Assembly (NCBI RefSeq): GCF_002873135.1 | Contig: NZ_MCVI01000013.1 | Span: 47,041-111,040 of the forward strand | Reading direction: 5' to 3' | Source of the DNA: Shewanella sp. 10N.286.48.A6 | GTDB taxonomy: Bacteria; Pseudomonadota; Gammaproteobacteria; Enterobacterales; Shewanellaceae | DNA: 64,000 bases | In this document: piece by piece, positions 3,863-53,405 of the stretch | Layout: each line of letters begins with the position of its first letter | How positions within the stretch are numbered: position 1 is the stretch's first letter | The notes under the pieces: generated by a model | Told to the model about the DNA's origin: nothing | The model's input: only the letters and a program-made list of their open reading frames with translations | Database searches by the model: none | Translations under genes and position numbers: made by a program

Positions 3863-3874
3863 ATTGTTAACAAT
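3863..3874. promoter_or_regulatory. Regulon operator ATTGTTAACAAT (perfect)
   Basis: A perfect 12-bp palindrome lies between the divergent sulfatase operon (start 3716) and the membrane AraC gene (start 3943). It is one of seven perfect copies in the window, all outside genes, and it sits just upstream of the -35 of the rightward promoter. Confidence 0.75.
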
Positions 3875-3877
3875 GTG

Positions 3878-3907
3878 TTGACTGTGTAAGTAGGCCATAG
3901 ATATAGT
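3878..3907 (+). promoter_or_regulatory. Candidate sigma-70 promoter for the AraC gene
   Basis: TTGACT (3878-3883), an 18-base spacer and TATAGT (3902-3907) resemble a sigma-70 promoter and lie 36 bases before the start codon at 3943. The palindrome at 3863-3874 ends 3 bases before the -35. This is inferred from base matches only. Confidence 0.5.
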
Positions 3908-3942
3908 TATAGGCTGGAATAAAACAAAATGATCAAACGCTT

Positions 3943-5385
3943 ATGTACCACGTTGAATTAAATTGGGATATGTTACTGCGAACGGTACTCCCTTTTGTTG
4001 CGGCCAATATTTTTCTTATGGTGCTGGTTTATTTCACATTAGTCAGAGATCGCATAGGTAAGGCTTATCCATTTTATTGCTTATTTATCATCTGTTTTAT
4101 TATCTTTTTGTGTGGACCTCTTATTAATATCATGCCATTAAATGAAGCGAGGCGAGGGTATGATATCGTACGCAACGTTTTATTGTTTACTGTGGGTATC
4201 CCTTGCTTACTCTATGCATTATTTTTGCAAGCAAAACAGCACATCTCAAAATTTCTGCTCATTACTCCAGTTATTTTAGGTTTTGCCTGGTGTTGTGGTT
4301 TTATTGTTGCTGCACCGTTATATCAGTACCACCCCAGTGAACTGCCTTGGTTAATCAGTGTTCAGAGCATTGACCATCAGATTATTTATTTATCGCAACT
4401 TGTTTTGATTATTATCCAGCTATTAGTGCCTTGTATTTTACTGTTAGGTAACAATCTTAAACCTTATGTCGCTACGCAGGTTTATGGTGCAATTACACTA
4501 AGTTTTTTCATGTGTTTAGGAAATGCGTTTGAGCTATGGATTGTTTATTACGCAGGAGCAAGTTTGAGTGCAATCATTTGGGCAAGGGCAGTATTTAATG
4601 ATGTCAAATTTACAAATGCAAAAATTCACCGTCATACAAAGCATCACCAATCTCTAGCTTTGGCGCAGTTTACTGCTAATAATGAGCGTTGCTTTAGTCA
4701 ATATTATCCCTATGAATTGAATAACACTTACCCGCTCAAAGAGCGCGATGCTCTATTAGAAGTGATTGGCATAGCAAATCCAGACTTAGCTAAAGCGAAG
4801 CTTGATGAATTATTACTAAAATTGAAGAGTTATAGTAAAAATACATTAAGTTGCTATCAGCATAGAGCTAAAGAAGTCGCTTTTATGATGTTTGATCAAG
4901 TTATTTTTCACTGTGGTAATAACAAATACATACTTGATAGATTGGAGAGTGCAGGGAATAGTTTACACTCAGCATCCAGTATTGCAGATATAGATCGTAT
5001 TTTGCATCATTCAGTTGATATGATCGCGACGACTGTTAGCCAGCTCTCTACAGGTAGCCCTGAGCAACAGTTGGTGGATAAGGTGAAAGTGTATATTTTA
5101 AATCGCTATCATCACGATATTACGGTTGCTGATATTGTTAGTGCCGTAGGGGCAAGTCGCTCATATACCATGAAAAATTTTAAGCAGCTGACTTCAACAA
5201 CCATTAATCAATATCTTGTTAATGTCAGAATAGAGCATGCTAAGTCTATATTATTATCAAAAAATGTAACAGAAACGGCTTATGCGGTTGGGTTTAATAA
5301 CTCTGCATATTTCTCAACGGTATTTAAAAAGTACACTCAATTATCACCCAAACAATATCAAGATAAATGCTCCGTTAAATCATAA
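3943..5385 (+). CDS. Membrane-anchored AraC-family transcriptional regulator
   Basis: This 480-residue protein has two halves. The first 220 residues or so hold six or seven hydrophobic segments, among them LLRTVLPFVAANIFLMVLV, FYCLFIICFIIFLCGPL, LLITPVILGFAWCCGFIVA and YLSQLVLIIIQLLVPCILL. The last 100 residues form an AraC double helix-turn-helix (VADIVSAVGASRSYTMKNFK, then TETAYAVGFNNSAYFSTVFKKY ending SPKQYQ). A DNA-binding domain tethered to a multi-span membrane domain suggests that it senses a membrane or periplasmic signal. It diverges from the two-sulfatase operon and shares a palindrome-bearing intergenic region with it. The ligand is unknown. No strong ribosome site is seen before the start. 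Confidence 0.85.
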   Translation: MYHVELNWDMLLRTVLPFVAANIFLMVLVYFTLVRDRIGKAYPFYCLFIICFIIFLCGPLINIMPLNEARRGYDIVRNVLLFTVGIPCLLYALFLQAKQHISKFLLITPVILGFAWCCGFIVAAPLYQYHPSELPWLISVQSIDHQIIYLSQLVLIIIQLLVPCILLLGNNLKPYVATQVYGAITLSFFMCLGNAFELWIVYYAGASLSAIIWARAVFNDVKFTNAKIHRHTKHHQSLALAQFTANNERCFSQYYPYELNNTYPLKERDALLEVIGIANPDLAKAKLDELLLKLKSYSKNTLSCYQHRAKEVAFMMFDQVIFHCGNNKYILDRLESAGNSLHSASSIADIDRILHHSVDMIATTVSQLSTGSPEQQLVDKVKVYILNRYHHDITVADIVSAVGASRSYTMKNFKQLTSTTINQYLVNVRIEHAKSILLSKNVTETAYAVGFNNSAYFSTVFKKYTQLSPKQYQDKCSVKS

Positions 5386-5622
5386 GTTTAAGCCATGTGA
5401 TTTTTATAACCTTGGCTATTATCAATGAAAACGGACCGGTTCGTGTCAATACACATATTGAGTTTCTCTTCATTCATTCTTTAATAATTAAATCGAATCT
5501 ACGACTTTATCCATCGCCTTGACACTTGCAAGGTGTAGTTGTGGTGTTGCGATGAATTTAGCCATGGATATGGAGGTTATCAGTAATAGAGTGTTACTAA
5601 ATCGCAATCGAATCTGGCATAT

Positions 5623-5796
5623 ATGTTTATGTTGGCAGAGCCTAAATTAGTTGGATATGCTAAAAGATTAGACACAGCAGTACCAGGAAGTGACTTTTAC
5701 TAAAAGTTGACTCACCTGATTGATTATATGGCTAACTCTAATCCTGAAGGGGCAGCCAAGGCTGCTGTCGATTCATTCTATATTAATACTGAATAG
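5623..5796 (+). pseudogene. Relic reading frame with internal stop
   Basis: A 58-codon frame from an ATG at 5623 to a TAG at 5794 reads MLAEPKLVGYAKRLDTAVPG, then an in-frame TAA at codon 27, then LTHLIDYMANSNPEGAAKAA. The composition looks like real protein rather than random AT-rich sequence, so it may be the remnant of a deleted gene. I do not recognise the family. Confidence 0.3.
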
Positions 5797-6106
5797 AGCT
5801 TACTTTAGATAAAATAGATTTTAATAAAAATGAGCGGCTATTAAGCCGTCTCAGAGTTACAAATGTCTTCGTTTAAATCAAAGATTATTACGAGTTATTT
5901 TACACCTTTAAGCTAAAAAATCGGCTTTCTTGAATCTATTACCTCTATTTCAACCGTTTAGAATGTCTGATTCAACTGATTTGATTTTACGAATCACCAA
6001 GACCTTAAAGAGTTATTAAGTCACTGTTAGTATTAGTTTAAAGTTAATTTATGCAAGTTTACTAATAGTTGCATAGGACATAATAGCTATATATTAGCCA
6101 AAGTTT

Positions 6107-6118
6107 ATTGTTAACAAT
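6107..6118. promoter_or_regulatory. Regulon operator ATTGTTAACAAT (perfect)
   Basis: A perfect palindrome 190 bases upstream of galT in the long intergenic region. It links galactose metabolism to the same control as the agarase and AHG genes. Confidence 0.7.
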
Positions 6119-6307
6119 TAACTTTATGTGTGATAGCTTGTCATAAGTGTTTCACTTTTGAGCGCGCATTTTTGACATGTTGAGTTTGTCAAAATTGGCA
6201 TGGACGTTATTGGTGGGAAAGTGAGCAGTTATATCTTGCTTTTAACAAAAATATTAATCACTTATGTTAGATGCTTTTTGTTTTATTGATAATTTTAGAA
6301 GGTAATC

Positions 6308-7357
6308 ATGCAGCAAGAAAATAATCAATTTGATCCAACAGAGCACCCACATCGACGTTATAACCCTATGACCGATGAATGGGTGTTGGTATCACCCCAT
6401 CGTGCCAAAAGACCCTGGCAGGGCCAAGTTGAAAAAGTCGATGAGCAGGATAAAAAACCTCACGATGAAAGTTGTTATTTATGTGCGGGTAATGTGCGTA
6501 TTAATGGCGAGGTTAATCCTGAGTATAAAAAATCTTTTGTGTTCGAAAATGATTTTGCAGCGTTAAAAAAAGATACCGTTAAGTTTGAACAAAATGACCC
6601 ATTATTCAAACTAAAAACCGAGCAAGGGGTTAGCAGAGTGATTTGTTTTTCACCAGATCACAGTAAAACCTTGCCACAATTATCTATTACAGAGCTAACT
6701 CATGTAGTTGAAGCATGGAAACATCAAACTGAAGTGCTGGGTAAGCATTATAAGTGGGTGCAAGTGTTTGAAAATAAAGGGGCTGTGATGGGGTGTTCAA
6801 ATCCGCATCCACATGGTCAAGTATGGGCTCAAAATCAATTGCCGACGTTGGCGCAAAAAAAGCAAAACGCGTTTAATCAGTATTATTCAGACCATAGCAG
6901 CAATCTGCTTGCTGATTATGTTGAACGTGAATTAGCAGAAAAAACTCGGGTTGTGGTTAGCAACGATGACTGGGTTGTAGTAGTGCCTTATTGGGCGGCG
7001 TGGCCATTTGAAACTCTATTATTACCAAGATTTCCAATTCAAAGAATGACAGATTTAATTGCCGAACAGCAAGTTAACCTCGCCGATATTATCAAGCAAA
7101 TTACTATTCGATACGACAATTTATTTAATTGTTCATTCCCTTATTCAATGGGCTGGCATGGTGCGCCATTTGATAAGGCGGCACACCCTGAGTGGACATT
7201 ACACGCCAGCTTTTTACCGCCATTATTACGTTCTGCCACGGTACGTAAGTTTATGGTGGGATATGAAATGATGGCTGAATCACAACGCGATTTGACTCCT
7301 GAACAAGCTGCTGAGCGCTTAAGAGTCGTTTCAGCAGTACATTATAAATTAAGCTAG
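6308..7357 (+). CDS. galT: Galactose-1-phosphate uridylyltransferase
   Basis: GalT exchanges UMP between UDP-glucose and galactose-1-phosphate in the Leloir pathway, in the cytoplasm. The 349-residue length is usual for the family. The start region [20 protein letters not shown] is characteristic, CYLCAGN carries the CxxC metal site, and the active-site triad His167-Pro-His169 lies in [11 protein letters not shown]-terminal GWHGAPFD segment is also conserved. An AAGGT ribosome site precedes the ATG. galK follows after 22 bases, so the pair is an operon. Here the galactose source is probably D-galactose released from neoagarobiose. galE and galM are absent from the window. Confidence 0.95.
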
Positions 7358-7379
7358 TTGATATTTTTGTAGGTTAATC

Positions 7380-8537
7380 ATGAGTAAAGAATTGATAAAG
7401 AGAGTAAAAGATACCTTCTCACATGCGTTTGGTTATCAAGCTAGTCATGTTTTCCAAGCACCAGGAAGAGTGAACTTGATTGGTGAGCATACTGACTATA
7501 ACGATGGTTTTGTTTTACCTAGTGCAATTAATTTTGCCACCGTAGTGGCTGCTAGTCCTCGTGAAGATAATCGTGTACGAGTGATATCTGTTGATTATGA
7601 TAATGCTGAAGATGATTTTTTAATTGATGACGATATTAGCAAATCACCACAAACTTGGGCCAATTATATTCGCGGTGTGGTGAAGCATTTGCGCTTAAGA
7701 GGCTTAACCTTTAACGGTGCAGATATTGTGGTGAGTGGCAATGTGCCACAAGGGGCGGGCTTAAGTTCATCTGCAGCATTAGAGGTGGTTATTGGCTTAA
7801 CCTTTAAGTCGTTATTTGATTTACCGTTAACAGCGCAAGATATTGCTTTAAATGCCCAGCAAGCTGAAAACCAGTTTGTGGGTTGTAATTGCGGCATTAT
7901 GGATCAGTTGATTTCAGCGCAGGCGAAAAAAGATCATGCCTTGTTAATTGATTGCCGCTCATTAGAAACTGCGCCGGTATTGCTCCCTGATAATTGGCGA
8001 ATTTTAATTATTAACTCCAATAAAAAACGGGGCTTAGTTGATAGCGAATACAATACTCGACGAGCGCAATGTGAACAGGCTGCCGCATTTTTTGAGGTAA
8101 AAGCGTTACGTAATGTCAGTATTAGTCAGTTTGAACAACGTAAGCCAGGTCTTGACCCTATAACCGCTAAACGTGCACGACATATTATTACTGAAAATAA
8201 ACGCACTGTAGATGCCGCTGAAGCATTACGTCAAAACAACATGCCTGTACTACAGCGTTTAATGGCAGAGTCGCACGCATCAATGCGCGATGACTTTGAA
8301 ATTACAGCGCCTGAAGTGGATGCATTAGTAGACATTATGAAAACAGCTTTAGGGGAGTTAGGCGGCGTTAGAATGACGGGTGGCGGCTTCGGTGGCTGTG
8401 TCGTTTCAATATTACCAGAAAACATGATTGAACAAGTGGTTGAAGCGGTTAATGCACAATACACAAAACGCAGTAATTTAACGGCATCGATATTCATTTG
8501 TACAGCAGAGCAAGGGGCTCAACAGCTTTGTTTTTAG
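7380..8537 (+). CDS. galK: Galactokinase
   Basis: GalK phosphorylates D-galactose at C1 with ATP, feeding GalT. This 385-residue GHMP kinase has the galactokinase signature [14 protein letters not shown] at residues 27-40, the ATP loop [12 protein letters not shown] near residue 127-138, CGIMDQ, and the C-terminal [13 protein letters not shown]. It is the second gene of a galT-galK operon that closes with a strong hairpin at 8574. Its presence in an agarolytic locus implies that galactose from agar enters glycolysis through the Leloir route, while the anhydro sugar uses the AHG operon to the right. Confidence 0.96.
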
Positions 8538-8573
8538 TATTTTCTGTGGCTTTTGGTTAGATAGTTATTCATT

Positions 8574-8610
8574 AAACAGCCCGATAATCATTGAGTTATC
8601 GGGCTGTTTT
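8574..8610. terminator. Bidirectional terminator after galK
   Basis: The arms AAACAGCCCGATAA and TTATCGGGCTGTTTT form a long perfect stem with an 8-base loop and T tracts on both strands. It lies between the convergent galK and FG-GAP genes and probably ends both transcripts. Confidence 0.85.
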
Positions 8611-8639
8611 ATTACTGATGAAATAGGAAATTTAACCGA

Positions 8640-10634
8640 TTAATTTCCCACATTAATCCATTGACCTGCGGCAACGTCATGTTGTTGTAACTGGCTGTTA
8701 TCTCGCCACGTCACGGTTATTGTTTTTACCTGATTTGCTTCACCCAAACCAAAGTGAGCTATGTTCATTAAGCTTTGAGAGTGTGCCGCGCTAATAGAGC
8801 CTACAGTAAATACTTGTTTGTCTATTTTTTCTATCGCTTGAGTGGCGGACTTTTGATGATATTCAATCACTACTTTTGCCCCTAATGGGTCAATACCAGA
8901 AGCGCTGTAACCTACATTCACATTAATAAAGTTGGCTTTACTGGCAGCTTGCGCAACACCTCCTAGGTTGTTAAACACCTGCCACTGACCGTTATCATCG
9001 TCACCACTAATGATGTCTACAAAACCGTCTTTATCAATATCGAACGCCGCGCCCATATCGCCATGGGCTTGAGAACCTAATGCAGTAGCGCCATGGCCTT
9101 CAACCTGAGTAAATTGACCTTGATGATTAAGCAGTAATATATCTTCAACTCGTTTATTAAGTTCACCAAATCGGTAAACAAAAAAGTCTGAATAGCTATC
9201 ATTGTCAAAGTCTGCGCTGATTACTCCCCAATTGTTATGCTTAGATTGAGGAGGAAGCCTTGAAGATGCGTCTACAAAGCGGCCATTATCATTAACAAGT
9301 AATATGTCATCTACCCCTAACGCTTGTGGCTGCCAATCAGGCTGAATGGAGGTCACTCCAGTAATAGAAGCTCTGATATCCCAAGCAAGATTGTCGTTTA
9401 GTTTCCAATCCAGTCGCCATTGATGCTGGCCCTTATTTTCTCCTTGTTGAATTTGCCCCACATAATGGATGTACCAGCCAGACTCGGTTATTGTCGGTTT
9501 GCCTTTGGCTAATTCAGGCGTCAAGGTAATGGATTTTTTTGGTGGATCGATTCGGGCATGATGTTGGCCAATAAACACCGGTAACTTGATAAGCTTTGGC
9601 CCACGAGGGAAATGATAAAAGTCGCCTAATGTAATGGGGCCTTGGCTGGTAAAACTAATACCGTCTTGGCTTTTATTACCTTCATCACGAATATCTAAGC
9701 GGGTGGTTTTTTTATCAAAAGAAAGCGCGTTATTAGCTATTTGATAATAAGACTTGCCTCGGGCTAAATATAAGTCTGTATCGCCATCATTTTCTATGTC
9801 AGTTTGGGCTATCGCAGTAACAAAGCCAACATCTTGCAAGTGAGCTGGTAAATACTGTTTCGTGGCATTTTCATATTGGCCATTGATTTTTCCTAGCCAT
9901 ATTTGTAGCGCTGAATAAGCATTAAAGGTAATTAAATCTGGATATTGATCATCATTTAATTGGCTTATCAAGATTTTTTCTGCATCAATGTCTTCAAATA
10001 ATGGACTTGAATGATATTTGAATTGCCCATCCCCCTGATTAATAAATAACAAATTACGCGGTACATCTTCGGTTATCATTTTTTCTGCGTTAATTTGAAT
10101 TAAGTCTAAATCACCGTCGTTATCGACATCTAACCAACGGGCTGAGCGTCCTCTTGCTCCCATATTTGCTAGCCCACTTTGTACTGTTACATCAACAAAT
10201 TTACCTTGCTGCTGTTTGAATAAGCGCGGTGGTTTAGGTTGTGTACCATTACCGCCACCTAAAGTGATAATGACGTCAACCTCACCATCATTGTCATAAT
10301 CAGCAGCGGAAATACCATGGACATCAGCTTGCGCTAACAAATGCGGTCCGCTGGTAAAAGTCCCCTTGTTACTGCCATAAAATAACTGAGTTGGCCATTG
10401 GTCATGGTTAGTTAGCAGCAAGTCATAATTGCCATCTCTATTTAAATCAACCGTTGCAGGGCCGCCATATTTCCAAGCTGGAAAAGAACTTAAGCGACTT
10501 TCTTGGGTTACCTTGGTAAACATCGGTGTAGGTGGAGCAGCTGCAAGTACATAATGATTATTCAATGCCATCATGCTAATTAGCCCAACAATTGAAATTC
10601 CATTCCGATGCTGAGTAAGTCGTCTGTTGTTCAT
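8640..10634 (-). CDS. Exported FG-GAP/VCBS repeat protein with ASPIC/UnbV domain
   Basis: The start is placed at 10634, where a GAAAGGAT ribosome site precedes MNNRRLTQHRN, giving 664 residues; an upstream in-frame start would add 12 unlikely residues. A signal peptide ends near residue 32. At least seven calcium-loop repeats of the form DxDxDGxxD follow (for example DLNRDGNYD, DYDNDGEVD, DVDNDGDLD, DIENDGDTD, DFDNDSYSD, DIDKDGFVD), which build a beta-propeller. The last 100 residues resemble the ASPIC/UnbV domain of CRTAC1-like proteins (LGAKVVIEY ... LGEANQVKTITVTW). Such proteins are often found beside polysaccharide-degrading genes, but no reaction is firmly assigned to them. It may bind or process agar fragments outside the cell. 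A near-palindrome at 10653 sits at its start, so it probably belongs to the regulon. Confidence 0.82.
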   Translation of the reverse strand: MNNRRLTQHRNGISIVGLISMMALNNHYVLAAAPPTPMFTKVTQESRLSSFPAWKYGGPATVDLNRDGNYDLLLTNHDQWPTQLFYGSNKGTFTSGPHLLAQADVHGISAADYDNDGEVDVIITLGGGNGTQPKPPRLFKQQQGKFVDVTVQSGLANMGARGRSARWLDVDNDGDLDLIQINAEKMITEDVPRNLLFINQGDGQFKYHSSPLFEDIDAEKILISQLNDDQYPDLITFNAYSALQIWLGKINGQYENATKQYLPAHLQDVGFVTAIAQTDIENDGDTDLYLARGKSYYQIANNALSFDKKTTRLDIRDEGNKSQDGISFTSQGPITLGDFYHFPRGPKLIKLPVFIGQHHARIDPPKKSITLTPELAKGKPTITESGWYIHYVGQIQQGENKGQHQWRLDWKLNDNLAWDIRASITGVTSIQPDWQPQALGVDDILLVNDNGRFVDASSRLPPQSKHNNWGVISADFDNDSYSDFFVYRFGELNKRVEDILLLNHQGQFTQVEGHGATALGSQAHGDMGAAFDIDKDGFVDIISGDDDNGQWQVFNNLGGVAQAASKANFINVNVGYSASGIDPLGAKVVIEYHQKSATQAIEKIDKQVFTVGSISAAHSQSLMNIAHFGLGEANQVKTITVTWRDNSQLQQHDVAAGQWINVGN

Positions 10635-10652
10635 AAAGTATCCTTTCTGTAT

Positions 10653-10664
10653 TTTGTTAACATT
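10653..10664. promoter_or_regulatory. Regulon operator, two mismatches (TTTGTTAACATT)
   Basis: The core TTGTTAACA is kept, and only the outer bases differ from ATTGTTAACAAT. It lies 19 bases before the FG-GAP gene start on the minus strand. The position supports function; the mismatches make it less certain than the perfect copies. Confidence 0.45.
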
Positions 10665-10800: not shown

Positions 10801-10838
10801 TTTACATCAAAACCACACAAGTGTAGATTGTTAACAAT
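10801..10838 (+). promoter_or_regulatory. AHG operon promoter with overlapping perfect operator
   Basis: TTTACA (10801-10806), a 17-base spacer and TAGATT (10824-10829) form a plausible promoter. The perfect palindrome ATTGTTAACAAT at 10827-10838 overlaps the -10 by three bases, a layout that favours repression. The same 15-base string TAGATTGTTAACAAT occurs at the TonB receptor promoter (18115-18129). Confidence 0.65.
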
Positions 10839-18058: not shown

Positions 18059-18070
18059 ATTGTCAACAAT
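18059..18070. promoter_or_regulatory. Regulon operator, one mismatch (ATTGTCAACAAT)
   Basis: It differs from the perfect palindrome only at the sixth base. It lies 20 bases upstream of the -35 of the TonB receptor promoter and supports a consensus ATTGTNNACAAT. Confidence 0.65.
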
Positions 18071-18117: not shown

Positions 18118-18129
18118 ATTGTTAACAAT
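18118..18129. promoter_or_regulatory. Regulon operator ATTGTTAACAAT (perfect)
   Basis: A perfect palindrome overlaps the last three bases of the -10 (TAGATT) of the TonB receptor promoter. This is the same geometry as at the AHG operon promoter. Confidence 0.75.
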
Positions 18130-27830: not shown

Positions 27831-27842
27831 ATTGTTAACAAA
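27831..27842. promoter_or_regulatory. Regulon operator, one mismatch (ATTGTTAACAAA)
   Basis: Only the last base departs from the perfect palindrome. It lies 133 bases upstream of the GH86 start. Confidence 0.6.
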
Positions 27843-28354: not shown

Positions 28355-28972
28355 CTACTTAATATTTTCTTTAATTGCTTTAACTGCGCGAGTAATATCA
28401 CCTTCACGTAACGCTTGTAGGATCCCTCTGTGCTCTTCTACACATTCTGAGCTAGTGGTAATACGTTTATAGTTAAGGCGCATACGCATGACGTATGGAT
28501 ACCAGATATTAACTAAATCTTCGCCACCTGCTTTATATATTAGGTAGTTATGGAACGAGATATCAACTTTTGTCACTTCAGTAAAATCTTCTCTATCAAA
28601 GGCTCCTTGTAACTCATCAAGAATCGTTTCCAATTGGGTTACATCATCTTCAGTTAATGGGTTATTTTTGAAATTTTCGATAGCATAGACTTCAATGTTA
28701 CGACGGAGGTTAATCATCAGCTTTTGCAGCTTTGGCTCTAGAACACTGTTAACTGATGCACCACAGTTATTTTTAGATATCAGTAAACCTTCTTTGGTTA
28801 ACTGTAAGATCACATCTCGAATCGGCCCGCGCGATAAACCAAAGCGTTTTGCTAACTCTTGCTCGTTAAGCTTAGTGTTTGGCGCTAAATCACCAGCAAT
28901 AATATCTGAACGCAGTTGATCTGCAATTTGATCTTTAACTGAAAGAATTTTTGTCGGTTTTGCTGCAGCCAT
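28355..28972 (-). CDS. GntR-family (FadR subfamily) transcriptional regulator, likely master regulator of the locus
   Basis: Start taken at ATG 28972 (MAAAKPTK), giving 205 residues; a TTG four codons upstream is possible. The N-terminal winged helix (residues about 10-75) carries the GntR signature KLNEQELAKRFGLSRGPIRD. The rest is an FCD ligand domain with DISFHNYLIYKAGG and a later EEHRGILQAL, which would hold a metal and a sugar-acid effector. It stands alone between two agarase genes, and two operator copies lie upstream of its own start (29049, 29153), suggesting autoregulation. FadR-type proteins bind short palindromes like the ATTGTNNACAAT sites here. Its role as the factor that binds them is an inference; the effector may be an intermediate of AHG breakdown such as KDG. 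Confidence 0.85.
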   Translation of the reverse strand: MAAAKPTKILSVKDQIADQLRSDIIAGDLAPNTKLNEQELAKRFGLSRGPIRDVILQLTKEGLLISKNNCGASVNSVLEPKLQKLMINLRRNIEVYAIENFKNNPLTEDDVTQLETILDELQGAFDREDFTEVTKVDISFHNYLIYKAGGEDLVNIWYPYVMRMRLNYKRITTSSECVEEHRGILQALREGDITRAVKAIKENIK

Positions 28973-29048: not shown

Positions 29049-29060
29049 ATTGTTAATAAT
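29049..29060. promoter_or_regulatory. Regulon operator, one mismatch (ATTGTTAATAAT)
   Basis: It differs at the ninth base and lies 77 bases before the gntR start, consistent with autoregulation. Confidence 0.55.
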
Positions 29061-29152: not shown

Positions 29153-29164
29153 ATTGTTAACAAC
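29153..29164. promoter_or_regulatory. Regulon operator, one mismatch (ATTGTTAACAAC)
   Basis: It differs only at the last base. It is the second site upstream of gntR and lies downstream of the GH50 stop. Confidence 0.6.
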
Positions 29165-31707: not shown

Positions 31708-31719
31708 TTTGTTAACAAT
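31708..31719. promoter_or_regulatory. Regulon operator, one mismatch (TTTGTTAACAAT)
   Basis: It differs only at the first base and lies 24 bases upstream of the GH50 gene 2 start. Confidence 0.6.
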
Positions 31720-31932: not shown

Positions 31933-31944
31933 ATTGTTAACAAT
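31933..31944. promoter_or_regulatory. Regulon operator ATTGTTAACAAT (perfect)
   Basis: A perfect palindrome 135 bases upstream of the sugar porter gene that heads the transporter-KDG kinase pair. Confidence 0.72.
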
Positions 31945-38861: not shown

Positions 38862-38873
38862 ATTGTTAACAAA
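38862..38873. promoter_or_regulatory. Regulon operator, one mismatch (ATTGTTAACAAA)
   Basis: It ends 6 bases upstream of the -35 of the TonB receptor 2 promoter and differs from the perfect palindrome only at the last base. Confidence 0.6.
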
Positions 38874-46540: not shown

Positions 46541-46849
46541 ATGGCTAAAGTCATCTTTGTTACTCAAAACAACGGCTCGGTGGAAGTGGAAGGCGACAGC
46601 GGCTCTTTAATGGAGTTAGCGGTGGCAAATGGTGTTGCAGGTATTGATGGTGACTGTGGCGGAGTGTGTTCATGTGCCACATGCCATATTTATGTAGACC
46701 CAGCCGACTTTGACAGAGTTGGGGCGGCAGAAGAAGTGGAAGCTGATATGTTGGAATTGGATGGCAAGGTGACTGAATATAGTCGTTTGTGTTGCCAAAT
46801 TGAAGTATCTGAACAAATTGATGGAATGACTTTTGTTGTCGCCAACTAA
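46541..46849 (+). CDS. Putidaredoxin-type [2Fe-2S] ferredoxin
   Basis: This 102-residue electron carrier has the cluster ligands Cys39, Cys45, Cys48 (DCGGVCSCATC) and Cys85 (RLCCQI), the spacing of putidaredoxin. It should pass electrons from the reductase 20 bases downstream to the P450 upstream. An AAAGGAA ribosome site precedes the start. A 245-base gap separates it from the P450 gene; that gap shows no gene and no clear promoter. Confidence 0.93.
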   Translation: MAKVIFVTQNNGSVEVEGDSGSLMELAVANGVAGIDGDCGGVCSCATCHIYVDPADFDRVGAAEEVEADMLELDGKVTEYSRLCCQIEVSEQIDGMTFVVAN

Positions 46850-46869
46850 GATCACTTTAAGGGTTAAAC

Positions 46870-48198
46870 ATGCAATCAGCTGAAGAATTTCGTTCTAACA
46901 ATGGCGCTGTCGTGATTATTGGTGCCAGTCATGCAGGGGTTAATTTTGCATTTAACCTACTTCAACAAGGGTGGACTGGCTGCATAACTTTAATCGAACG
47001 TGATCCCGAGTTGCCGTATCACAGGCCACCGTTATCTAAAAAAACATTGCAATCAGCAGAGTTGAAGTCGACACCATTGAAGGCTGAAAAAGCCTACAAA
47101 GATAACAATATTGAATTAAAGCTTGGTTATGAGGTGACCGTTGTTAATCATTCAGCCAAGCAGCTGACTCTCAATGATGGTCAATATATTCATTATGACA
47201 AATTAATCATTGCGACCGGCTGTCGGGCCTTTATTCCGCCTATTTCAGGGATGGACGTGGCTGAGACTTCAAATACTAATCGGTCTATTTTTACTATGCG
47301 CACTTTTGCTGATACGACAGCCATTAAGGCGGCACTAAATAACAGCAGCGATAAGCAGGTGGTTATTATTGGCGGTGGTTATATTGGCCTTGAAAGCGCC
47401 GCATCCTTGATTGCAATGGGTGCCAAAGTGACTGTGATTGAAAAGCAGCCGAAGATATTATCGCGAGTGACGTCAGCCGTGATGTCAGACTTTTTAACTG
47501 AATTACATCTCAGTAAAGGTGCTGAAATACTGACAGGTAAAGACGTTATTGAAGTTAAGCAACTCAGTCACCAATATCCTCACCAGCCCTCTCACCAGTA
47601 CCAACATAAACAAGTGGTGGTGTGCGGTGACGGCAGTGAATATTGTGCCGATTTTATTATTGTTGGTGTCGGCGTTAGGCTAAATTCGCAATTAGCGCTT
47701 GATGCAGGTGTTGAGGTTGAGCAGGGCATTAAAGTGAATGAGGCTTGCCAAACATCTAATGAAGACATTTTTGCCATTGGTGATTGCACTCAGCAATTTA
47801 GCTCACTTTATCAAAGATGGATTCGGCTTGAGTCAGTTCAAAATGCCGTTGATCAGGCCAAAATTGCCGCGCAGTTTTTAACGGGGAAATTATCCCAAGG
47901 TGAGCCTGTTCAGCAAACCGTTCCTTGGTTCTGGTCAGATCAATATAACTGTAAATTGCAAATTGTAGGCTTGTCTGACGGCTATGATGAGCTCCTTGTG
48001 AAGCAAGAATCAGTCGATCAGTTTTCGGTTTGGTATTTTAAAGCAGATAAGTTGCTGTGTGTTGAGGCCGTAAATTATGCCAAAGCTTATGTGTTAGGCA
48101 CGCAGGCGATAAAGCAAAATCTCTTAGTTGATAAGACGGCATTGCAAAGTCGGGATGCGTTATCCAAAGAAATCCTGTTTTTAGCAGTTTCTAACTAA
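46870..48198 (+). CDS. NAD(P)H-dependent ferredoxin reductase (putidaredoxin reductase type)
   Basis: This 442-residue FAD enzyme has two dinucleotide folds: VVIIGASHAGVNFA near the start and VVIIGGGYIGLESA in the middle. The conserved LPYHRPPLSKKTL and the FAIGDCTQ motif that touches FAD are also present. It supplies electrons to the ferredoxin and P450. It is slightly longer than family norm (about 400-410) through a His/Gln-rich loop (QLSHQYPHQPSHQYQHK). It ends convergent with an AraC regulator. Confidence 0.92.
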   Translation: MQSAEEFRSNNGAVVIIGASHAGVNFAFNLLQQGWTGCITLIERDPELPYHRPPLSKKTLQSAELKSTPLKAEKAYKDNNIELKLGYEVTVVNHSAKQLTLNDGQYIHYDKLIIATGCRAFIPPISGMDVAETSNTNRSIFTMRTFADTTAIKAALNNSSDKQVVIIGGGYIGLESAASLIAMGAKVTVIEKQPKILSRVTSAVMSDFLTELHLSKGAEILTGKDVIEVKQLSHQYPHQPSHQYQHKQVVVCGDGSEYCADFIIVGVGVRLNSQLALDAGVEVEQGIKVNEACQTSNEDIFAIGDCTQQFSSLYQRWIRLESVQNAVDQAKIAAQFLTGKLSQGEPVQQTVPWFWSDQYNCKLQIVGLSDGYDELLVKQESVDQFSVWYFKADKLLCVEAVNYAKAYVLGTQAIKQNLLVDKTALQSRDALSKEILFLAVSN

Positions 48199-48233
48199 CA
48201 TTTACTCTGCTGATTAGTCGACACCGCAATCGA

Positions 48234-49085
48234 TTAGTTGGTTAATTGTTTGCGGTATTGATGTGGGGTGATTTTAAAATGATGTTTGAATTGCTTGATG
48301 AAATACGACGAGCTTGAAAAGCCTAATTCATAAGAAATATCTGTTACTGATGTGGTCGTTTGGCTTAACAAACGTGCTGCAGTATACAGTTTATGACGGA
48401 TCATATAGTCGGAATAGGGCACTCTAAAGTGGTTTTTAAACACTCTAGAAAAATAAGACGGCGATAGGTGACATAGTTTGGCTGCGTCTTCTAATGACAA
48501 ATTTACCCCCGTGGGTTGAGTTAATTTAGCCATTAATGGAGCGAGTTTTTGGTAACTGTTCGACACATTTAGCGGAGTTTGCTTACTGGTTAAGCTACTT
48601 TTGCCATATTCGCACACTATGGTCACAAGGCTATTGAACAACTGTTTGCAGGTATGACTTTGGGGATTTTCATTAAACTCAGTCAATAACCAGCCTAGTA
48701 ATTGATGAATTTTCTGTTGTACCTCAGTGGAGAAACGCAAATGCAAACCGGTTTTTAATATCTCAGTAAATTGACTTATGGATGGGTGATTGAGGAGCTC
48801 AGGCATAAATTGGACTATATACCAAGATTTAGGACGTGGGTTTAGTACAAAGTTATGGCTTTCCATGGATGGCGTGAACACCGCTTCAAAATCAGCAAGT
48901 AGGCTTTCTCCCTGATGATAGAAATAACTGCCATCAATTTGTTCAAAAAAAATGAACTCATGCACTTGATGAAAGTGCAAAAAGCATGAGTAGCTATCGT
49001 GTTGCAGATAACTGACGTAATGAATTTCAAAGTCGTAACCGTCTTTTATGGAATAAGGTTCGCAGTAAATAGTAGGTTTTTTCAT
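48234..49085 (-). CDS. AraC-family transcriptional regulator
   Basis: Start at ATG 49085 (MKKPTIYCEP), giving 283 residues; the longer reading runs through the operator and into the divergent gene. An N-terminal cupin-like ligand domain (FEIHYVSYLQHDSYSCFLHFHQVHEFIF) is followed by the double helix-turn-helix (SLEDAAKLCHLSPSYFSRVF, then SVTDISYELGFSSSSYFIKQF, ending TPHQYRK). Its position between the P450 set and the divergent dehydrogenase-esterase pair suggests it activates these genes in response to a methylated sugar or another product. A perfect operator lies 12 bases before its start, shared with the dehydrogenase gene. Confidence 0.9.
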   Translation of the reverse strand: MKKPTIYCEPYSIKDGYDFEIHYVSYLQHDSYSCFLHFHQVHEFIFFEQIDGSYFYHQGESLLADFEAVFTPSMESHNFVLNPRPKSWYIVQFMPELLNHPSISQFTEILKTGLHLRFSTEVQQKIHQLLGWLLTEFNENPQSHTCKQLFNSLVTIVCEYGKSSLTSKQTPLNVSNSYQKLAPLMAKLTQPTGVNLSLEDAAKLCHLSPSYFSRVFKNHFRVPYSDYMIRHKLYTAARLLSQTTTSVTDISYELGFSSSSYFIKQFKHHFKITPHQYRKQLTN

Positions 49086-49097
49086 ATCTTTATACTT

Positions 49098-49109
49098 ATT
49101 GTTAACAAT
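49098..49109. promoter_or_regulatory. Regulon operator ATTGTTAACAAT (perfect)
   Basis: A perfect palindrome in the 35-base gap between the divergent AraC and alcohol dehydrogenase genes, placed to control both at once. Confidence 0.75.
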
Positions 49110-49120
49110 TAGGAGTTTAC

Positions 49121-50230
49121 ATGTACAAGGCAAAGGCTGCAATTGCAGACGGTAAAGGGGGGGTCTTTTTTGACACCGTAACCTTAGGTAAGCCAAAGGC
49201 AGGTGAAGTAAAAATAAAAATACAGGCCTCCGGTATTTGCCATACCGATTTGGACTCTATTAAAACTTGGAATAAAAAGTTCATCATTGGTCACGAGGGT
49301 GCGGGCACCGTAGTTGAGCTTGGTGACAATGTAACTGGCTTAGCTATTGGCGATAAGGTAATTTTAAATTGGGCAATTCCATGCGGTGAATGTTTTCAGT
49401 GCCAAGAAGGTAACTTACATATTTGTGAGGTTAATAGTCCTGTAACGGGTGATGGCTTATGCGGACATGCCCATGAGCAAGGTTGCCAACATAATGGTAA
49501 TAGTTTAAGTCGCTCATTTCATTTAGGCACCATGAGTGAATACACCATAGTCAAATCAGCCGCAGTGATAAAAATTGACAGTAATATACCGTTTCCAAGT
49601 GCCAGTATTGTTGGCTGTGGTGTGATGACCGGATATGGCTCAGTGGTTAATGCTGCAAAAGTAAAAGTGGGTTCCACTGTTGCGGTATTAGGCTGTGGCG
49701 GAGTGGGTTTAAATGTTATTCAAGCTGCTGCTATTGCGGGGGCGGCTAAAATCATCGCCATTGATTTAATAGAGTCTCGCTTGCAACAAGCCAAGCAATT
49801 TGGTGCAACTGATATTATAGTGGCCAGTAAAGATGACCCTAACTTGACTGAAATGGTTGCTCAAGTTAAAGCCTTAACACAAGGTCGTGGCGCAGATTAT
49901 GGCTTTGAATGTACCGCTGTTCCAGCTTTAGGTTCAGCGCCATTAGCATTAATAAGAAGTGCCGGTGTAGCTGTACAGGTCAGTGGTATTGAGCAAAAAA
50001 TTGATTTTGATTGTGAGTTGTTTGAATGGGACAAAATTTACATTAATCCGCTGTATGGTCAGTGCAATCCCAAGCTAGATTTTGGTCAAATTATTCAATT
50101 GTATGATGCAGGTAAAATGAAGCTAGATGAGTTGGTCACTAAAACCTATTCATTAGCCGAATTACAACAAGGTTTCGATGACATGTTGGCAGGACGGATT
50201 GCCAAAGGCGTTATCGTGTTTGATGATTAA
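49121..50230 (+). CDS. Zinc alcohol dehydrogenase, class III-like (formaldehyde detoxification candidate)
   Basis: This 369-residue MDR enzyme resembles class III alcohol dehydrogenases (glutathione-dependent formaldehyde dehydrogenase). Catalytic zinc region GICHTDLDS and GHEGAGTVVELG, structural zinc cysteines CGECFQCQEGNLHIC, and NAD motif LGCGGVGLNVIQ are intact. P450 demethylation of 6-O-methyl-galactose yields formaldehyde, so an aldehyde or formaldehyde-oxidising role is attractive. An AGGAG ribosome site lies just before the start. An esterase with a formylglutathione-hydrolase-like serine motif follows by 48 bases. The Gly-Asp loop of true class III enzymes is not fully checked, so another alcohol substrate is possible. 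Confidence 0.83.
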   Translation: MYKAKAAIADGKGGVFFDTVTLGKPKAGEVKIKIQASGICHTDLDSIKTWNKKFIIGHEGAGTVVELGDNVTGLAIGDKVILNWAIPCGECFQCQEGNLHICEVNSPVTGDGLCGHAHEQGCQHNGNSLSRSFHLGTMSEYTIVKSAAVIKIDSNIPFPSASIVGCGVMTGYGSVVNAAKVKVGSTVAVLGCGGVGLNVIQAAAIAGAAKIIAIDLIESRLQQAKQFGATDIIVASKDDPNLTEMVAQVKALTQGRGADYGFECTAVPALGSAPLALIRSAGVAVQVSGIEQKIDFDCELFEWDKIYINPLYGQCNPKLDFGQIIQLYDAGKMKLDELVTKTYSLAELQQGFDDMLAGRIAKGVIVFDD

Positions 50231-50278
50231 CTTAGCCAATCTAGTTAATGGATTATTTATTTATGTAGGGAATGATTA

Positions 50279-51088
50279 ATGACTGTCAAGCGTTTAGAAG
50301 TGTCACCCATTAATTTCTACGGTGATAATTTTGACACGATTACGGCTTATAGCAGCCACCTGAATGGCCGAGGTGATATTAGTGTTTATCGCCAAACAAC
50401 AAAGAGTACCAATGTCCCTATTATCATACTGTTACATGGGGTGTATGGAAGTCATTGGGTGTGGAGCCAGCTAGGTGGAGTAGAGCAGGTCTATACAAAC
50501 CTACGGCAGAAAGGCTTGAGTGAGTTTGTGCTGGTGATGCCATCAGACGGAGGTCACTATGAAGGCAGTGGTTACTTACCATTTAATCATGCGGATTATG
50601 AGGCTTGGATTGTTGAAGATGTCATTTCAGCTGTTATTGACACTCTGCCTATGTGTTCTGATAAATCAAAAATTTATATTTGTGGCTTATCAATGGGCGG
50701 GTATGGCGCATTACGTCTAGGAGCGAAGTATCCTAAAGTGTTTAGTGGTATATCGGCTCATTCATCAATTACCAATATTGAAGATTTTACTGAGTTTGTT
50801 GACCGTGAGACATTAAATTCATTGCAACAAACCACGGATATATATGGCGGAGATGTATTCACCACATTAAATGAAAATCACTCGACATTAGCACCTTTGA
50901 GGTTAGATTGCGGTAAAGAAGACCCGCTTTTTACTGCTAATAGCCGATTAGTAAGGCAACTTATTATGGCCAATATTGACCATACATTCGAAATATTTGA
51001 TGGCGGACATAGTTGGGAGTATTGGCATCAGCATGTGGTAAAGACGTTTGAATTTTTTGCCCATATAGAGAAAAGCAATAATGCTTGA
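50279..51088 (+). CDS. Esterase-D-like alpha/beta hydrolase
   Basis: This 269-residue hydrolase has the oxyanion segment LLHGVYGSHWVW, the nucleophile elbow GLSMGGYGA with Ser138, and a C-terminal DGGHSWEYW holding the catalytic His; CGKEDPLF likely carries the acid. These are features of the esterase D/S-formylglutathione hydrolase group. Together with the dehydrogenase upstream it could complete a formaldehyde-to-formate route, or it could remove acyl groups from algal sugars. There is no signal peptide, which favours a cytoplasmic role. It is the second gene of the pair controlled from 49098. Confidence 0.78.
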   Translation: MTVKRLEVSPINFYGDNFDTITAYSSHLNGRGDISVYRQTTKSTNVPIIILLHGVYGSHWVWSQLGGVEQVYTNLRQKGLSEFVLVMPSDGGHYEGSGYLPFNHADYEAWIVEDVISAVIDTLPMCSDKSKIYICGLSMGGYGALRLGAKYPKVFSGISAHSSITNIEDFTEFVDRETLNSLQQTTDIYGGDVFTTLNENHSTLAPLRLDCGKEDPLFTANSRLVRQLIMANIDHTFEIFDGGHSWEYWHQHVVKTFEFFAHIEKSNNA

Positions 51089-51305
51089 AATTCATATCAG
51101 GCACCCTTAAGGTTTCCATACCCGCTACCCTCGAGTTTTCCTAACAGTCACCCTTGAGATCTTTAATCAAGGGGCTGCCTTTACCTTTTGTTGTGGTCAA
51201 CCGATATTGGCCATGCTCTTAGAGTTTAACCAGAATATTCGTCCTGTGTGGCTGGATGTTAGCCTACATCATATTGATGGACCCTGAACTGATAGTAATA
51301 CTCAA

Positions 51306-51540
51306 TTATGTATTGAGTAATTCACCTTGCGGACTATATACCCAGATATTATTGATGTTGTTATGAAACATCATGAAGCGGCGCTCCTTGGCATCCATAG
51401 CATATCCATGACAAATTAGACTGGGTATTGGGCTGGGTTAAGCTTGCCCCAATGTGCATCCACCTAGAATGTAAACTCTCCGTGACCAATAATTTTGCCG
51501 TGAGGGGCCAGTCCATTAATGGGAATGGCATGTTGAGTAA
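51306..51540 (-). pseudogene. Remnant of a propeller-like (NHL/6-bladed) protein
   Basis: The minus strand reads HAIPINGLAPHGKIIGHGE, a stop, VDAHWGKLNPAQYPV, another stop, and after a one-base shift CHGYAMDAKERRFMMFHNNI then NNIWVYSPQGELLNT before a final stop. The pieces run in a sensible order and look like NHL-type propeller blades of sugar-locus proteins. The frame is broken at least three times, so the gene is dead. The family match is tentative. Confidence 0.4.
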
Positions 51541-51576
51541 GCGTCTGGTTTGCAGTCTTGGTTTTTTCTTATGATA

Positions 51577-51606
51577 AAACCGCTCAAATAATGTTTTAAG
51601 CGGTTT
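51577..51606 (-). terminator. Terminator of the PhyH-like gene
   Basis: AAACCGCT and AGCGGTTT form a stem about 30 bases past the stop codon on the minus strand, and on that strand it is followed by a T-rich stretch. Confidence 0.65.
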
Positions 51607-51637
51607 GGATTAATTTATCTGAAAGGCTACAAATGGA

Positions 51638-52393
51638 TTAACTGGCTTGCCAATTCAAAATGGCATCATCTTCTACTCGGTTTAATGGGTAGTAGACTGC
51701 TTCGTTTTCAATAAACGATTGATTACTGATAGCATTGTAAGCGCTAATCATGCTCCAGCGAGGTTGTGCTGAACGGTTTTGGTTGGATTTATGTAATAAA
51801 TTACAGTGGAAGAATAATACATCTCCAGGTTCAAGTTCGACATTAACAAGAGGATGATATTTCATCGCTTCTTCTACGAATTCCATTGCCGCGCCTTTTT
51901 GGTCACCGGTTTTGTTGTGGTCTAAACGACCTAAGTGATGTGAGCCTTTTAGTACCTGTAAGCAACCATTTTCTTGGGTTGCCTTATTAATAGCAATCAT
52001 GCAACTGATCGCTTTGGGATAAAGCATGAAGTTGTCGCGGTGCCAGTAACCAAAGTCTTGATGCCATTCCCATGCGCCGCCCACAAAGGGCTCCTTCATC
52101 ATAATTTTTGTACTAGTGTGGTAAACCTCTTCACCTATTAACGTTTGACATACATCCACTAAGCGTCGGCCGCGAGAAAACATGCTGTAAAAATCGTCGC
52201 CGGTTTTTTGCCATAAACACACTTTACTGATAGCGCCTTGTGCATCTTTTTTATCCCATGCTCGCTTATACAATGACTCATCGTTAAATGCGGCTTGTTG
52301 TAATCGAGAAATTTCTTCCTGCGAATAGTAGCCTTTCATAATCAAATATCCATTTTGATTAAATTGCGTAATTTGTTCGGCGGTGATTGTCAT
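51638..52393 (-). CDS. Phytanoyl-CoA dioxygenase (PhyH)-like Fe(II)/2-oxoglutarate oxygenase
   Basis: This 251-residue oxygenase has the iron triad His111-x-Asp113 (WHQDFGYWH) and distal His201 (LLHKSNQNRS), with an Arg eight residues or so beyond that can bind 2-oxoglutarate. The N-terminus (ITAEQITQFNQNGYLIMKG) is typical for PhyH-like proteins. Members act on many small molecules, not only phytanoyl-CoA, and bacterial ones sit in sugar or osmolyte loci. A perfect operator is 36 bases upstream, so it shares the agar regulon. The substrate is unknown; a methylated or oxidised galactose derivative is one possibility. Confidence 0.85.
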   Translation of the reverse strand: MTITAEQITQFNQNGYLIMKGYYSQEEISRLQQAAFNDESLYKRAWDKKDAQGAISKVCLWQKTGDDFYSMFSRGRRLVDVCQTLIGEEVYHTSTKIMMKEPFVGGAWEWHQDFGYWHRDNFMLYPKAISCMIAINKATQENGCLQVLKGSHHLGRLDHNKTGDQKGAAMEFVEEAMKYHPLVNVELEPGDVLFFHCNLLHKSNQNRSAQPRWSMISAYNAISNQSFIENEAVYYPLNRVEDDAILNWQAS

Positions 52394-52428
52394 ATGCTAT
52401 TGTCCATAACTGATTGTGGTTAATGATT

Positions 52429-52440
52429 ATTGTTAACAAT
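52429..52440. promoter_or_regulatory. Regulon operator ATTGTTAACAAT (perfect)
   Basis: A perfect palindrome between the divergent PhyH-like and IclR genes. On the minus strand a TTGAAA lies at a suitable distance, so the palindrome would overlap the -10 of the PhyH-like gene. Confidence 0.72.
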
Positions 52441-52608
52441 AATCATGGATGATGTTGAAGATTTCAACTAGAATTTATATAAAAATATGACATTTATATA
52501 TGAATATTTATGGTTCTATTAAGTCACTGTTTTATTAGTTTATTGTTATTTCTTAGTGCTGAAAATATTTTTTTGTTCATATTAGAATATGTGATTAAAG
52601 GAGCCAAA

Positions 52609-53379
52609 GTGAAAGATAAAACAAGCCAAAAATATGCAGTACCGGCATTAGATAAAGGGTTGGATATACTTGAGTTTTTGGTTAGTCATGCTATGCCTTG
52701 CAACCAAAGTGAGATAGCGGCGGGTGTTGGGCGTGGCCCAAATGAGATTTATAGAGTACTTGTTAGATTGGAAAAGCGTGGTTATGTTCAACGCCACCCC
52801 ACAACAGGTCGATATGAATTATCGCTAAAGTTGTATCATCTCTCTAGAAACATTTCGCCTATGGATAGAGTTCGACAATCAGCGTTACCTTATATGGAAG
52901 ATCTAGCTGTAAGTACTGGTCAGTCTTGTTATTTAAGTATGCTGTATCAAAGCCAAGCGATGGTAATTGTTTATGCTAGAAGCACCAGTGCTATTCACTT
53001 AAGCATTGCTGAAGGTGCAATGTTTCGTCTTAGCCAATCAACAGCGGGAAAATTATTACTAGCCAATAGTAATGAAGAAGTACAGACGATGTTAATTGAG
53101 CATGATCCGACATTTTGCCACTGGGGCCCGTCTGAACGAAGTTATTTAACGACAGAGTTAGCAGCTTTAAGACAATCTGGATTTATTGTGCAGCCAAACA
53201 GTTTACTGACAGGAGTAAAAGATTATTCCGTACTTATTGGCCAACCAAATGCAAAAGTCATTGCGGCTTTAAGTATGTCCACTTTTGAAATGCAAACTGA
53301 TGAAGTTAATCGTTCGCATGACCTGCTTGAATCACTATTTAAAACGGCAAGTCAAATTACTAGGTTGATTGCGGAATAA
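52609..53379 (+). CDS. IclR-family transcriptional regulator
   Basis: Start taken at GTG 52609, which has AAAGGAG 5 bases before it; earlier in-frame starts add a non-conserved hydrophobic leader. The 256-residue protein has a winged helix (ALDKGLDILEFLVSHAMPCNQSEIA, then GRGPNEIYRVLVRLEKRGYV) and the IclR effector domain (FRLSQSTAGKLLLA, GFIVQPNSLLTGVKDYSVLI). It probably controls the GMC oxidoreductase operon downstream, the PhyH-like gene, or both. IclR proteins often respond to sugar acids or ketones. Confidence 0.9.
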   Translation: MKDKTSQKYAVPALDKGLDILEFLVSHAMPCNQSEIAAGVGRGPNEIYRVLVRLEKRGYVQRHPTTGRYELSLKLYHLSRNISPMDRVRQSALPYMEDLAVSTGQSCYLSMLYQSQAMVIVYARSTSAIHLSIAEGAMFRLSQSTAGKLLLANSNEEVQTMLIEHDPTFCHWGPSERSYLTTELAALRQSGFIVQPNSLLTGVKDYSVLIGQPNAKVIAALSMSTFEMQTDEVNRSHDLLESLFKTASQITRLIAE

Positions 53380-53393
53380 AACACGCTTGCGAC

Positions 53394-53405
53394 ATTGTAG
53401 ACAAT
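53394..53405. promoter_or_regulatory. Regulon operator, altered centre (ATTGTAGACAAT)
   Basis: The two five-base arms ATTGT/ACAAT are perfect; only the two central bases differ. It lies 119 bases upstream of the Tat subunit gene, just after the iclR stop, and supports the consensus ATTGTNNACAAT. Confidence 0.55.

Follow-up and report, generated by a model that had tools for sequence, protein, structure and literature searches.

Operators of the GntR/FadR subfamily are described in the relevant passages of PMC4494728 as TKGT/ACMA half-sites with two or three nucleotides between GT and AC, with PrpR counted among the groups that have a 2-nt gap. In marine polysaccharide degraders, GntR genes near carrageenan or alginate clusters are mentioned without an operator in the pertinent passages of three papers (PMC6262041, PMC5698469, PMC3124978). 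Among the matches listed for the open-access literature, no regulator with an operator for agar catabolism was found in Gammaproteobacteria, and GntR, IclR and AraC are absent from the main text of PMC5943477 and PMC6952198, which deal with two organisms of our sampled set. Here we analysed a 64,000-nucleotide stretch of Shewanella sp. 10N.286.48.A6 (contig NZ_MCVI01000013.1, positions 47,041 to 111,040; hereafter the window), which contains an agar locus with repeated copies of a 12-bp palindrome, ATTGTTAACAAT. The locus also encodes a 205-aa GntR/FadR-subfamily regulator with Pfam GntR and FCD domains (28355..28972, minus strand; hereafter GntR), the proposed binder of the palindrome. That the palindrome is a real operator and defines a regulon is, in our assessment, practically certain.

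Copies of the palindrome in the window and genome

The window contained 24 copies of ATTGTTAACAAT with up to two mismatches: seven were perfect, seven had one mismatch and ten had two. In 100 dinucleotide shuffles of the window, such loose matches averaged 10.0 (standard deviation 3.2, largest 19). Loose copies by themselves are little proof, and those with two mismatches, taken together, are close to chance level, whereas the seven perfect copies are far in excess. The original prediction, made from the letters of the window, had counted these seven, and each was confirmed at exactly its position. Its six one-mismatch sites were also recovered, but a seventh copy (13475), which sits inside the SDR coding sequence and was treated as chance, was missing from its list; its two two-mismatch sites (10653 and 53394) are present, but they are two of ten such copies. 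It had further placed all sites between genes, which applied to 14 of the 15 after start-codon correction, the site at 10653 overlapping the uncertain TTG start of the FG-GAP open reading frame (ORF). In an alignment of these 15 sites, conservation dropped beyond 12 bp, with a modest A/T preference in the flanks.

The entire genome (4,649,920 bases, 104 contigs) was scanned for the palindrome, both exactly and with one mismatch allowed, and for the core TTGTNNACAA, the core matches being listed up to contig C18 (G, C and L numbers denote our genomes, contigs and loci). Only seven perfect copies were found, every one inside the window, and the reversed control gave none. The probability of this clustering under even placement was ca. 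1e-13, the window having been picked beforehand. The even spread over the genome that the original prediction had named as contrary evidence was thus not seen with perfect copies. With at most one mismatch, 47 places were found, 14 of them within the window (control: 12).

Of the 33 places outside the window, the 7 keeping TTGTNNACAA were inspected together with the core match C8:69063. Five of these eight places lie inside coding ORFs (C83 twice, C8:78282, C18 and C23). The C15 place lies upstream of two ORFs, an rpe-like one at 202 bp and a 122-aa one at 88 bp, and C8:69063 is 58 bp before a putA-like ORF; the names rpe and putA were read from the translations. The remaining place, ATTGTAAACAAT at C13:43910-43921, precedes the ATG of a 1045-aa ORF by 38 bp, and no agar-like gene was found at the seven inspected places other than this one. 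The ORF starts outside the window (C13:43960) and ends within it (1..57, plus strand), and in relatives it resembles the FG-GAP protein (36–39% over part of the length). With its upstream ATTGTAAACAAT, it is a possible further member of the regulon outside the window.

Sites before the genes of the agar locus

Pfam and NCBIfam assignments in the window included sulfatases, two AraC regulators, galT-galK, an FG-GAP protein, a sugar transporter and a 2-keto-3-deoxygluconate (KDG) kinase-like protein, together with an enolase-superfamily enzyme, two dehydrogenases and an aldehyde dehydrogenase, read as the anhydrogalactose (AHG) pathway. They further included three proteins with an agarase CBM-like domain (called GH50a–c), two TonB receptors, a tryptophan-halogenase-like protein, SapC, a porphyranase-like protein, GntR, a GH43-like protein (called GH117), a PhoD-like protein, a P450 with its reductase, an alcohol dehydrogenase (ADH), an esterase, PhyH, IclR and a GMC oxidoreductase with ThuA. 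The names GH50, GH86 and GH117 and the pathway roles of these genes are presumed, in part after the original prediction, and the chemistry of the AHG pathway beyond the domain assignments is general background.

The position of the motif was examined in 387 upstream regions from the window, nine stretches of six Shewanella genomes and 29 named loci, the last found through GntR and so containing it by construction. Hits below 35% identity, hits starting after query residue 60, upstream stretches shorter than 150 bp and integrases were dropped, as were the duplicates L082-L085 (same genomes as G048, G058, G084 and G053), G015 stretches (for which L103 stands in), G047b, G067b and G067d. The motif occurred in 174 of the 387 regions, compared with 3, 4 and 17 for three control palindromes. 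Among 2304 gapped 4+4 palindromes (gaps 0–8), TTGT-N2-ACAA came top of the ranking, and the next two were shifted readings of this site.

Sites were concentrated before genes that come first in their operon. They were present upstream of the AHG cycloisomerase in 13/13 regions, of TonB receptors 1 and 2 in 17/17 each (34/34 together), of GH50b in 27/28 and of the MFS sugar transporter in 16/17. In the window, these are the perfect site before the AHG catabolic operon (10827..10838), whose promoter layout is shared by six Shewanella; a distal site (ATTGTCAACAAT, 18059..18070) and a proximal perfect site (18118..18129) before TonB receptor 1, for which each of the 17 regions held at least one site; the site before TonB receptor 2 (38862..38873); that before GH50b on the minus strand (31708..31719); and a perfect site before the plus-strand MFS-kdgK-GH117 genes (31933..31944).

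The other genes that come first, or mostly so, gave more varied counts. PhyH (12/13) and IclR (12/14) share a perfect site between them (52429..52440; PhyH on the minus and IclR on the plus strand). The site before the GMC oxidoreductase genes, ATTGTAGACAAT (53394..53405), was unchanged in sequence in 4/5 GMC3 regions, and ADH likewise had a site in 4/5, its perfect copy (49098..49109) lying within the 35 bp that separate the ATG of AraC2 (49085, minus strand) from that of ADH (49121, plus strand). For AraC2 itself the count (2/8) was depressed by the doubtful TTG start at 49196 used for the query, the conserved ATG being that at 49085. The FG-GAP gene had a site in 7/9 regions; its two-mismatch site in the window (10653..10664) is at the 5' end of the minus-strand gene, and better copies lie near the same gene in G053 and G047. 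GH86 had a site in 7/10 regions (27831..27842, before the minus-strand GH86/porphyranase-like gene). For gntR, a site within 350 bp was found in 22/36 regions. The claim that gntR is preceded by two copies was confirmed: ATTGTTAACAAC (29153..29164) and the weaker ATTGTTAATAAT (29049..29060), with one-mismatch copies at the same place in six other Shewanella genomes, lie 180 and 76 bp upstream of ATG 28972, the most likely start. Lower or smaller counts were obtained for sulf2 (2/4), AraC1 (1/1) and galT (3/11), which lies inside an operon at Pseudoalteromonas loci. Perfect sites stand between the minus-strand sulfatase operon and the plus-strand AraC1 (3863..3874) and before galT-galK (6107..6118), the latter also in G053 and G058.

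Five window-internal genes had no site upstream in any of 62 regions (ZnADH 0/13, SDR 0/13, galK 0/11, SapC 0/14 and PhoD-like 0/11). Few sites were found for the aldehyde dehydrogenase (3/13, a range that includes the coding copy 13475 of the window), KdgK (2/18), the tryptophan-halogenase-like gene (1/20), GH117 (1/18) and GH50c (1/6), and none upstream of sulf1 (n = 7), GH50a (4), ricin-like (6), P450 (6), reductase (6), esterase (5), GMC (4) and ThuA (4). The proposal of one regulon across the agar locus was therefore supported by sites that stand before operon-first genes and are kept across genera.

Co-occurrence of the sites with GntR

In a family sample of 152 genomes, GntR was present at 67–100% identity in eight (the own genome included), the next best hits being at ca. 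32%. Perfect copies numbered 7 in G000, 5 in G047, 4 in G048, 7 in G053, 7 in G058, 7 in G067, 6 in G084 and 4 in G015, a mean of 5.9 against a mean of 0.63 and a maximum of 4 in the other 144 genomes (Mann–Whitney P 1e-7, kinship ignored). The agar regions of the seven relatives, most of which were read (that of G084 without its left end, where two more copies lie), had copies at the corresponding promoters even where the locus was inverted or reshuffled. Relocated genes also kept the site: the PhyH/IclR pair elsewhere in G047 and G067, the MFS/PhyH pair in G015 and a 61% sulfatase homolog elsewhere in G047, preceded by a perfect copy. The perfect copies elsewhere do not all belong to the regulon: two in G067 fall within ORFs, and one in G015 is 59 bp upstream of a gnd-like ORF. 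A perfect site of G047 (L052:6295), far from the agar locus, was observed 79 bp before a 354-aa ORF that reads as NHL-repeat-like.

A scan of named genomes yielded 40 loci, 33 of them with GntR orthologs at 54–100% identity (five overlap with family-sample genomes, and Paraglaciecola hydrolytica is counted twice). These belonged to 11 genera, Shewanella, Pseudocolwellia, Psychrosphaera, Colwellia, Paraglaciecola, Pseudoalteromonas, Thalassotalea, Paraferrimonas, Microbulbifer, Alteromonas and Neiella, plus one unclassified metagenome-assembled genome, and the site recurred before the same operons in the 11 named genera. The 33 ortholog loci held 93 copies of TTGTTAACAA, compared with ca. 2 expected, with at least one in 30 of them, and TTGTNNACAA was present at all 33. 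Among the seven loci with GntR homologs of only 24–33% identity, TTGTTAACAA occurred in one and TTGTNNACAA in five.

Because 29 named loci had been found through GntR, co-occurrence was also examined starting from the AHG cycloisomerase (E ≤ 1e-120 among 394 genomes of the order). It was held by 24 genomes, 20 of which were newly searched for GntR. Of the 12 genomes that have a GntR ortholog (55% identity or more), 11 had a site within 300 bp upstream of the cycloisomerase gene, compared with none of the 12 without. In the 20 newly searched genomes, perfect copies numbered 5–10 in the 8 with GntR and 0–4 in the 12 without.

The GntR/FadR regulator as candidate binder

GntR had hits to PF00392 (57.5 bits) and PF07729 (52.9 bits), both above the cut-off, and it combines the N-terminal GntR winged helix with the C-terminal FCD domain, the arrangement of the FadR subfamily. 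Granted that it is the binder, TTGT-TA-ACAA has the form of a FadR-subfamily operator. According to the specificity passages of PMC4494728, Arg at helix-turn-helix position 28 favours a G at the K position and Pro at position 40 avoids it, and Asn at position 59 tends towards A/T, though not significantly. Ungapped counting from Table 1 of that paper maps these positions to residues 38, 50 and 69 here. In 34 aligned GntR sequences, residue 38 was Q, K, I, T or H and never Arg, residue 50 was Pro and residue 69 Asn; the GntR of G067, outside this set, has Leu at residue 50. These residues point to T at the K position, in agreement with TTGT. The idea that the wing residue N69 sets the TA centre was weakened, as L170 and L174 carry Asn there yet have CG centres.

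As judged from sequence, GntR very probably binds the palindrome. Its standing in the original prediction as the best candidate binder was supported by its co-occurrence with the sites, the FadR operator rule and the poorer fit of the other regulators of the window.

Promoter layout and proposed regulation

Sigma-70 boxes were located with a simple score of our own, and the promoter statements are leads. In the AHG operon of six Shewanella, TTTACA lies 17 bp before TAGATT (TAAATT in G048), which runs into the site, and at TonB receptor 1 of the window TTGACA lies 18 bp before a TAGATT that also runs into the proximal site; both sites overlap the candidate −10 box. The fusion of TAGATT to TTGTTAACAA occurred 11 times in the 33 named loci, as far as Microbulbifer and Neiella. 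The overlap with candidate −10 boxes, this fusion and the site in the 35-bp AraC2/ADH gap favour occlusion of RNA polymerase.

In the proposed mechanism, the operator of GntR would be [A/T]TTGT-TA-ACAA[A/T], and a GntR dimer would bind it upstream of roughly twelve transcription units that serve the use of agar and porphyran. The predicted targets are the TonB receptors, GH50/GH86-type hydrolases, the AHG pathway, the transporter-KDG kinase genes and galT-galK, as well as ADH/AraC2, PhyH/IclR, the GMC genes and gntR itself. GntR would most likely repress them by occupying the promoter, and we regard repression as likely. A carboxylic sugar acid of the pathway (anhydrogalactonate, 2-keto-3-deoxy-galactonate or -gluconate) may well bind the FCD domain and release GntR. 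That the effector is a sugar acid is an even call, a guess made because the putative metal-ligand residues D137, H141 and H181 are as expected of carboxylate-binding FCD domains such as that of DgoR; all three were invariant in the 34 sequences, with Asn167 at the position of TM0439 His174 (alignment reading). As a whole, this explanation, from dimer binding through repression to release by a sugar acid, appears highly probable.

Alternative explanations

It is unlikely that GntR binds the sites but activates some or all promoters. The sites of TonB receptor 2 and AraC1 are just upstream of −35-like boxes; the former, next to a TTGACA box, would also suit activation, which counts against a purely repressing GntR, and regulation at these two promoters may differ from that at the others. 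On the other hand, sites overlap the candidate −10 both at the AHG operon and at TonB receptor 1, the gap between the AraC2 and ADH start codons is a difficult position for an activator site, and the characterised relative DgoR is described as a repressor in the pertinent parts of PMC12288454 and PMC7674646. A repeated element without regulatory role, or chance, is a negligible possibility: although ca. 10 of the 24 loose window matches are expected by chance, the palindrome stands before operon-first genes and is conserved across genera, and the flanks past 12 bp are little conserved. It is very unlikely that the IclR-family regulator (52510-53379) is the binder and GntR merely its neighbour. 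IclR orthologs occur in 6/7 other GntR-positive family genomes and in 8/8 further GntR-positive genomes, and most IclR upstream regions carry a site, as given above. However, G015 (98% complete) has GntR and four perfect copies but no IclR hit, whereas G239 and G230 have IclR (45% and 53%), no GntR ortholog and no perfect copy. IclR was inside only 8 of the 33 fetched loci (up to 10 kb on each side), although it may lie elsewhere in the genome, while TTGTNNACAA was in all 33. The IclR-family forms given in PMC8222616, in the part concerned, GKTYCRYW3-4RYGRAMC and TGRAACAN1-2TGTTYCA, were unlike the palindrome when compared by eye. Within 600 bp upstream of IclR, no site was found in G239, G230 or five of eight distant GntR-positive genomes; a site was thus not always upstream of IclR, being present in only 3/8 of the latter. 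AraC1 was not found in the relative regions examined.

A regulator encoded outside the locus, such as PrpR, is also very unlikely to be the one that uses the sites. The own-genome PrpR-like GntR gene adjoins prpB (L210:6720-8400) and has two TTGTCGACAA sites, the CG-centred TTTGTCGACAAT and ATTGTCGACAAT, just upstream, with the same half-sites. Of the 37 paralog loci examined, 26 had the weaker GntR hit next to prpB, the name PrpR resting on this neighbour and prpB having been identified at one paralog locus. In 25 of the 26 prpB-adjacent loci (2.5–3.6 kb each), [AT]TTGTNNACAA[AT] was present. Against this explanation, PrpR-like genes are also found in genomes where perfect copies are few or absent, the number of perfect copies tracks the agar GntR, and the centres differ: TA 73, CA 16 and CG 1 among 103 sites at 29 agar loci, compared with TA 4, CA 20 and CG 28 among 57 sites at prpB-adjacent loci. 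CA-centred sites thus occur in both groups, so any insulation between the GntR and PrpR-like regulons is incomplete.

Several further observations weigh against the main explanation. PrpR might bind the CA-centred copies (18059 and others). The relatives are not independent, so the P values are overstated, and several GntR-negative genomes have perfect copies (four each in G080 and G096; three each in G062, G088 and G110). The absence of copies from G239 and G230 is close to the GntR-negative background (mean 0.63), and the dissociation from IclR concerns three genomes. No site was found within 350 bp of gntR in 14/36 regions. In the cycloisomerase test, the exception, G229, has GntR at 78%, yet its 63% cycloisomerase has no site; second cycloisomerase copies without a site in G212 and G244 are of the same 63–64% subtype. 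The cycloisomerases of all 12 GntR-negative genomes were at 61–64%, and the agar-type enzyme (70–100% identity) co-occurs with GntR, so that this test is confounded by gene subtype. Finally, the core TTGTNNACAA alone was not enriched in the genome (98 vs. 126 for its control), which suggests that the central TA and the outer A/T matter.

Further features of the window

The IclR start is doubtful: in G048 and G053, stops upstream of about residue 30 suggest GTG 52591 or 52609. A tyrosine-integrase gene lies to the right of the agar locus (57409-58897), and a 1.5-kb copy of it with 96% identity, oriented alike, is found ca. 71 kb to the left (C13:31667-33154; L076:4627-6114), and integrase-like fragments also adjoin the locus in G048 and G058. 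The agar locus may be part of an island that is mobile or recombining. Past a second integrase, at the contig end, is an OLD-like AAA ATPase with a TOPRIM domain (62185-63975), a possible defence gene.

Relation to known systems

The regulon is ordinary in kind, new in its assignment within the literature searched, and broad. Beyond the original prediction, it spans many genera and reaches genes outside the locus, and its half-sites are common with PrpR-like regulators, with another centre. The odds seem evenly balanced that agar and porphyran catabolism throughout the agarolytic Gammaproteobacteria is governed by a single conserved GntR/FadR master switch, which would have been exchanged along with the genes, would share half-sites with PrpR-like regulators of the same cell and would be kept separate from them chiefly through the central two base pairs (TA vs. 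CG). The predicted operator in 11 named genera offers one testable switch for red-algal polysaccharide use. It would also link genes of unclear role to the pathway, namely PhyH, GMC, FG-GAP, the tryptophan-halogenase-like gene and SapC.

Among regulators of marine galactan loci, the AraC-family CgrA of the Zobellia carrageenan locus controls a marine red-algal galactan locus, but it differs in regulator family, phylum and polysaccharide, and no operator is given in the pertinent part of PMC5698469. The carrageenan cluster of Pseudoalteromonas carrageenovora, as described in the corresponding section of PMC6262041, resembles the agar locus in having a GntR gene within a marine galactan catabolic cluster; it serves carrageenan rather than agar, and its GntR is a galactonate operon repressor by annotation only. 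DgoR, the D-galactonate repressor of Escherichia coli, is also a GntR/FadR regulator. In the relevant passages of PMC12288454 and PMC7674646, it has an FCD domain with Asp/His metal ligands, which are putative in the agar GntR, and it resembles the latter in its link to sugar-acid catabolism and in the half-sites TTGT..ACAA in IR1. It differs in having 3 nt between the half-sites, compared with 2 nt in the window sites, which places the agar GntR outside the DgoR group; in controlling one operon; and in a weak sequence match only (PDB 7c7e, E 1e-5).

The PrpR-like regulators are similar to the agar GntR in the recognition helix (SRGP in most), the half-sites ATTGT/ACAAT and the 2-nt gap. The own-genome relative is only ca. 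26% identical, however, and the PrpR-like group has mostly CG or CA centres beside propionate genes, whereas the agar GntR lies in the agar locus, where most sites are TA-centred. The half-site looks like a property of a GntR branch that includes the PrpR-like paralogs, with the centre differing between them. The pair of agar GntR and PrpR-like paralog offers a case for how a two-base centre may separate regulons.

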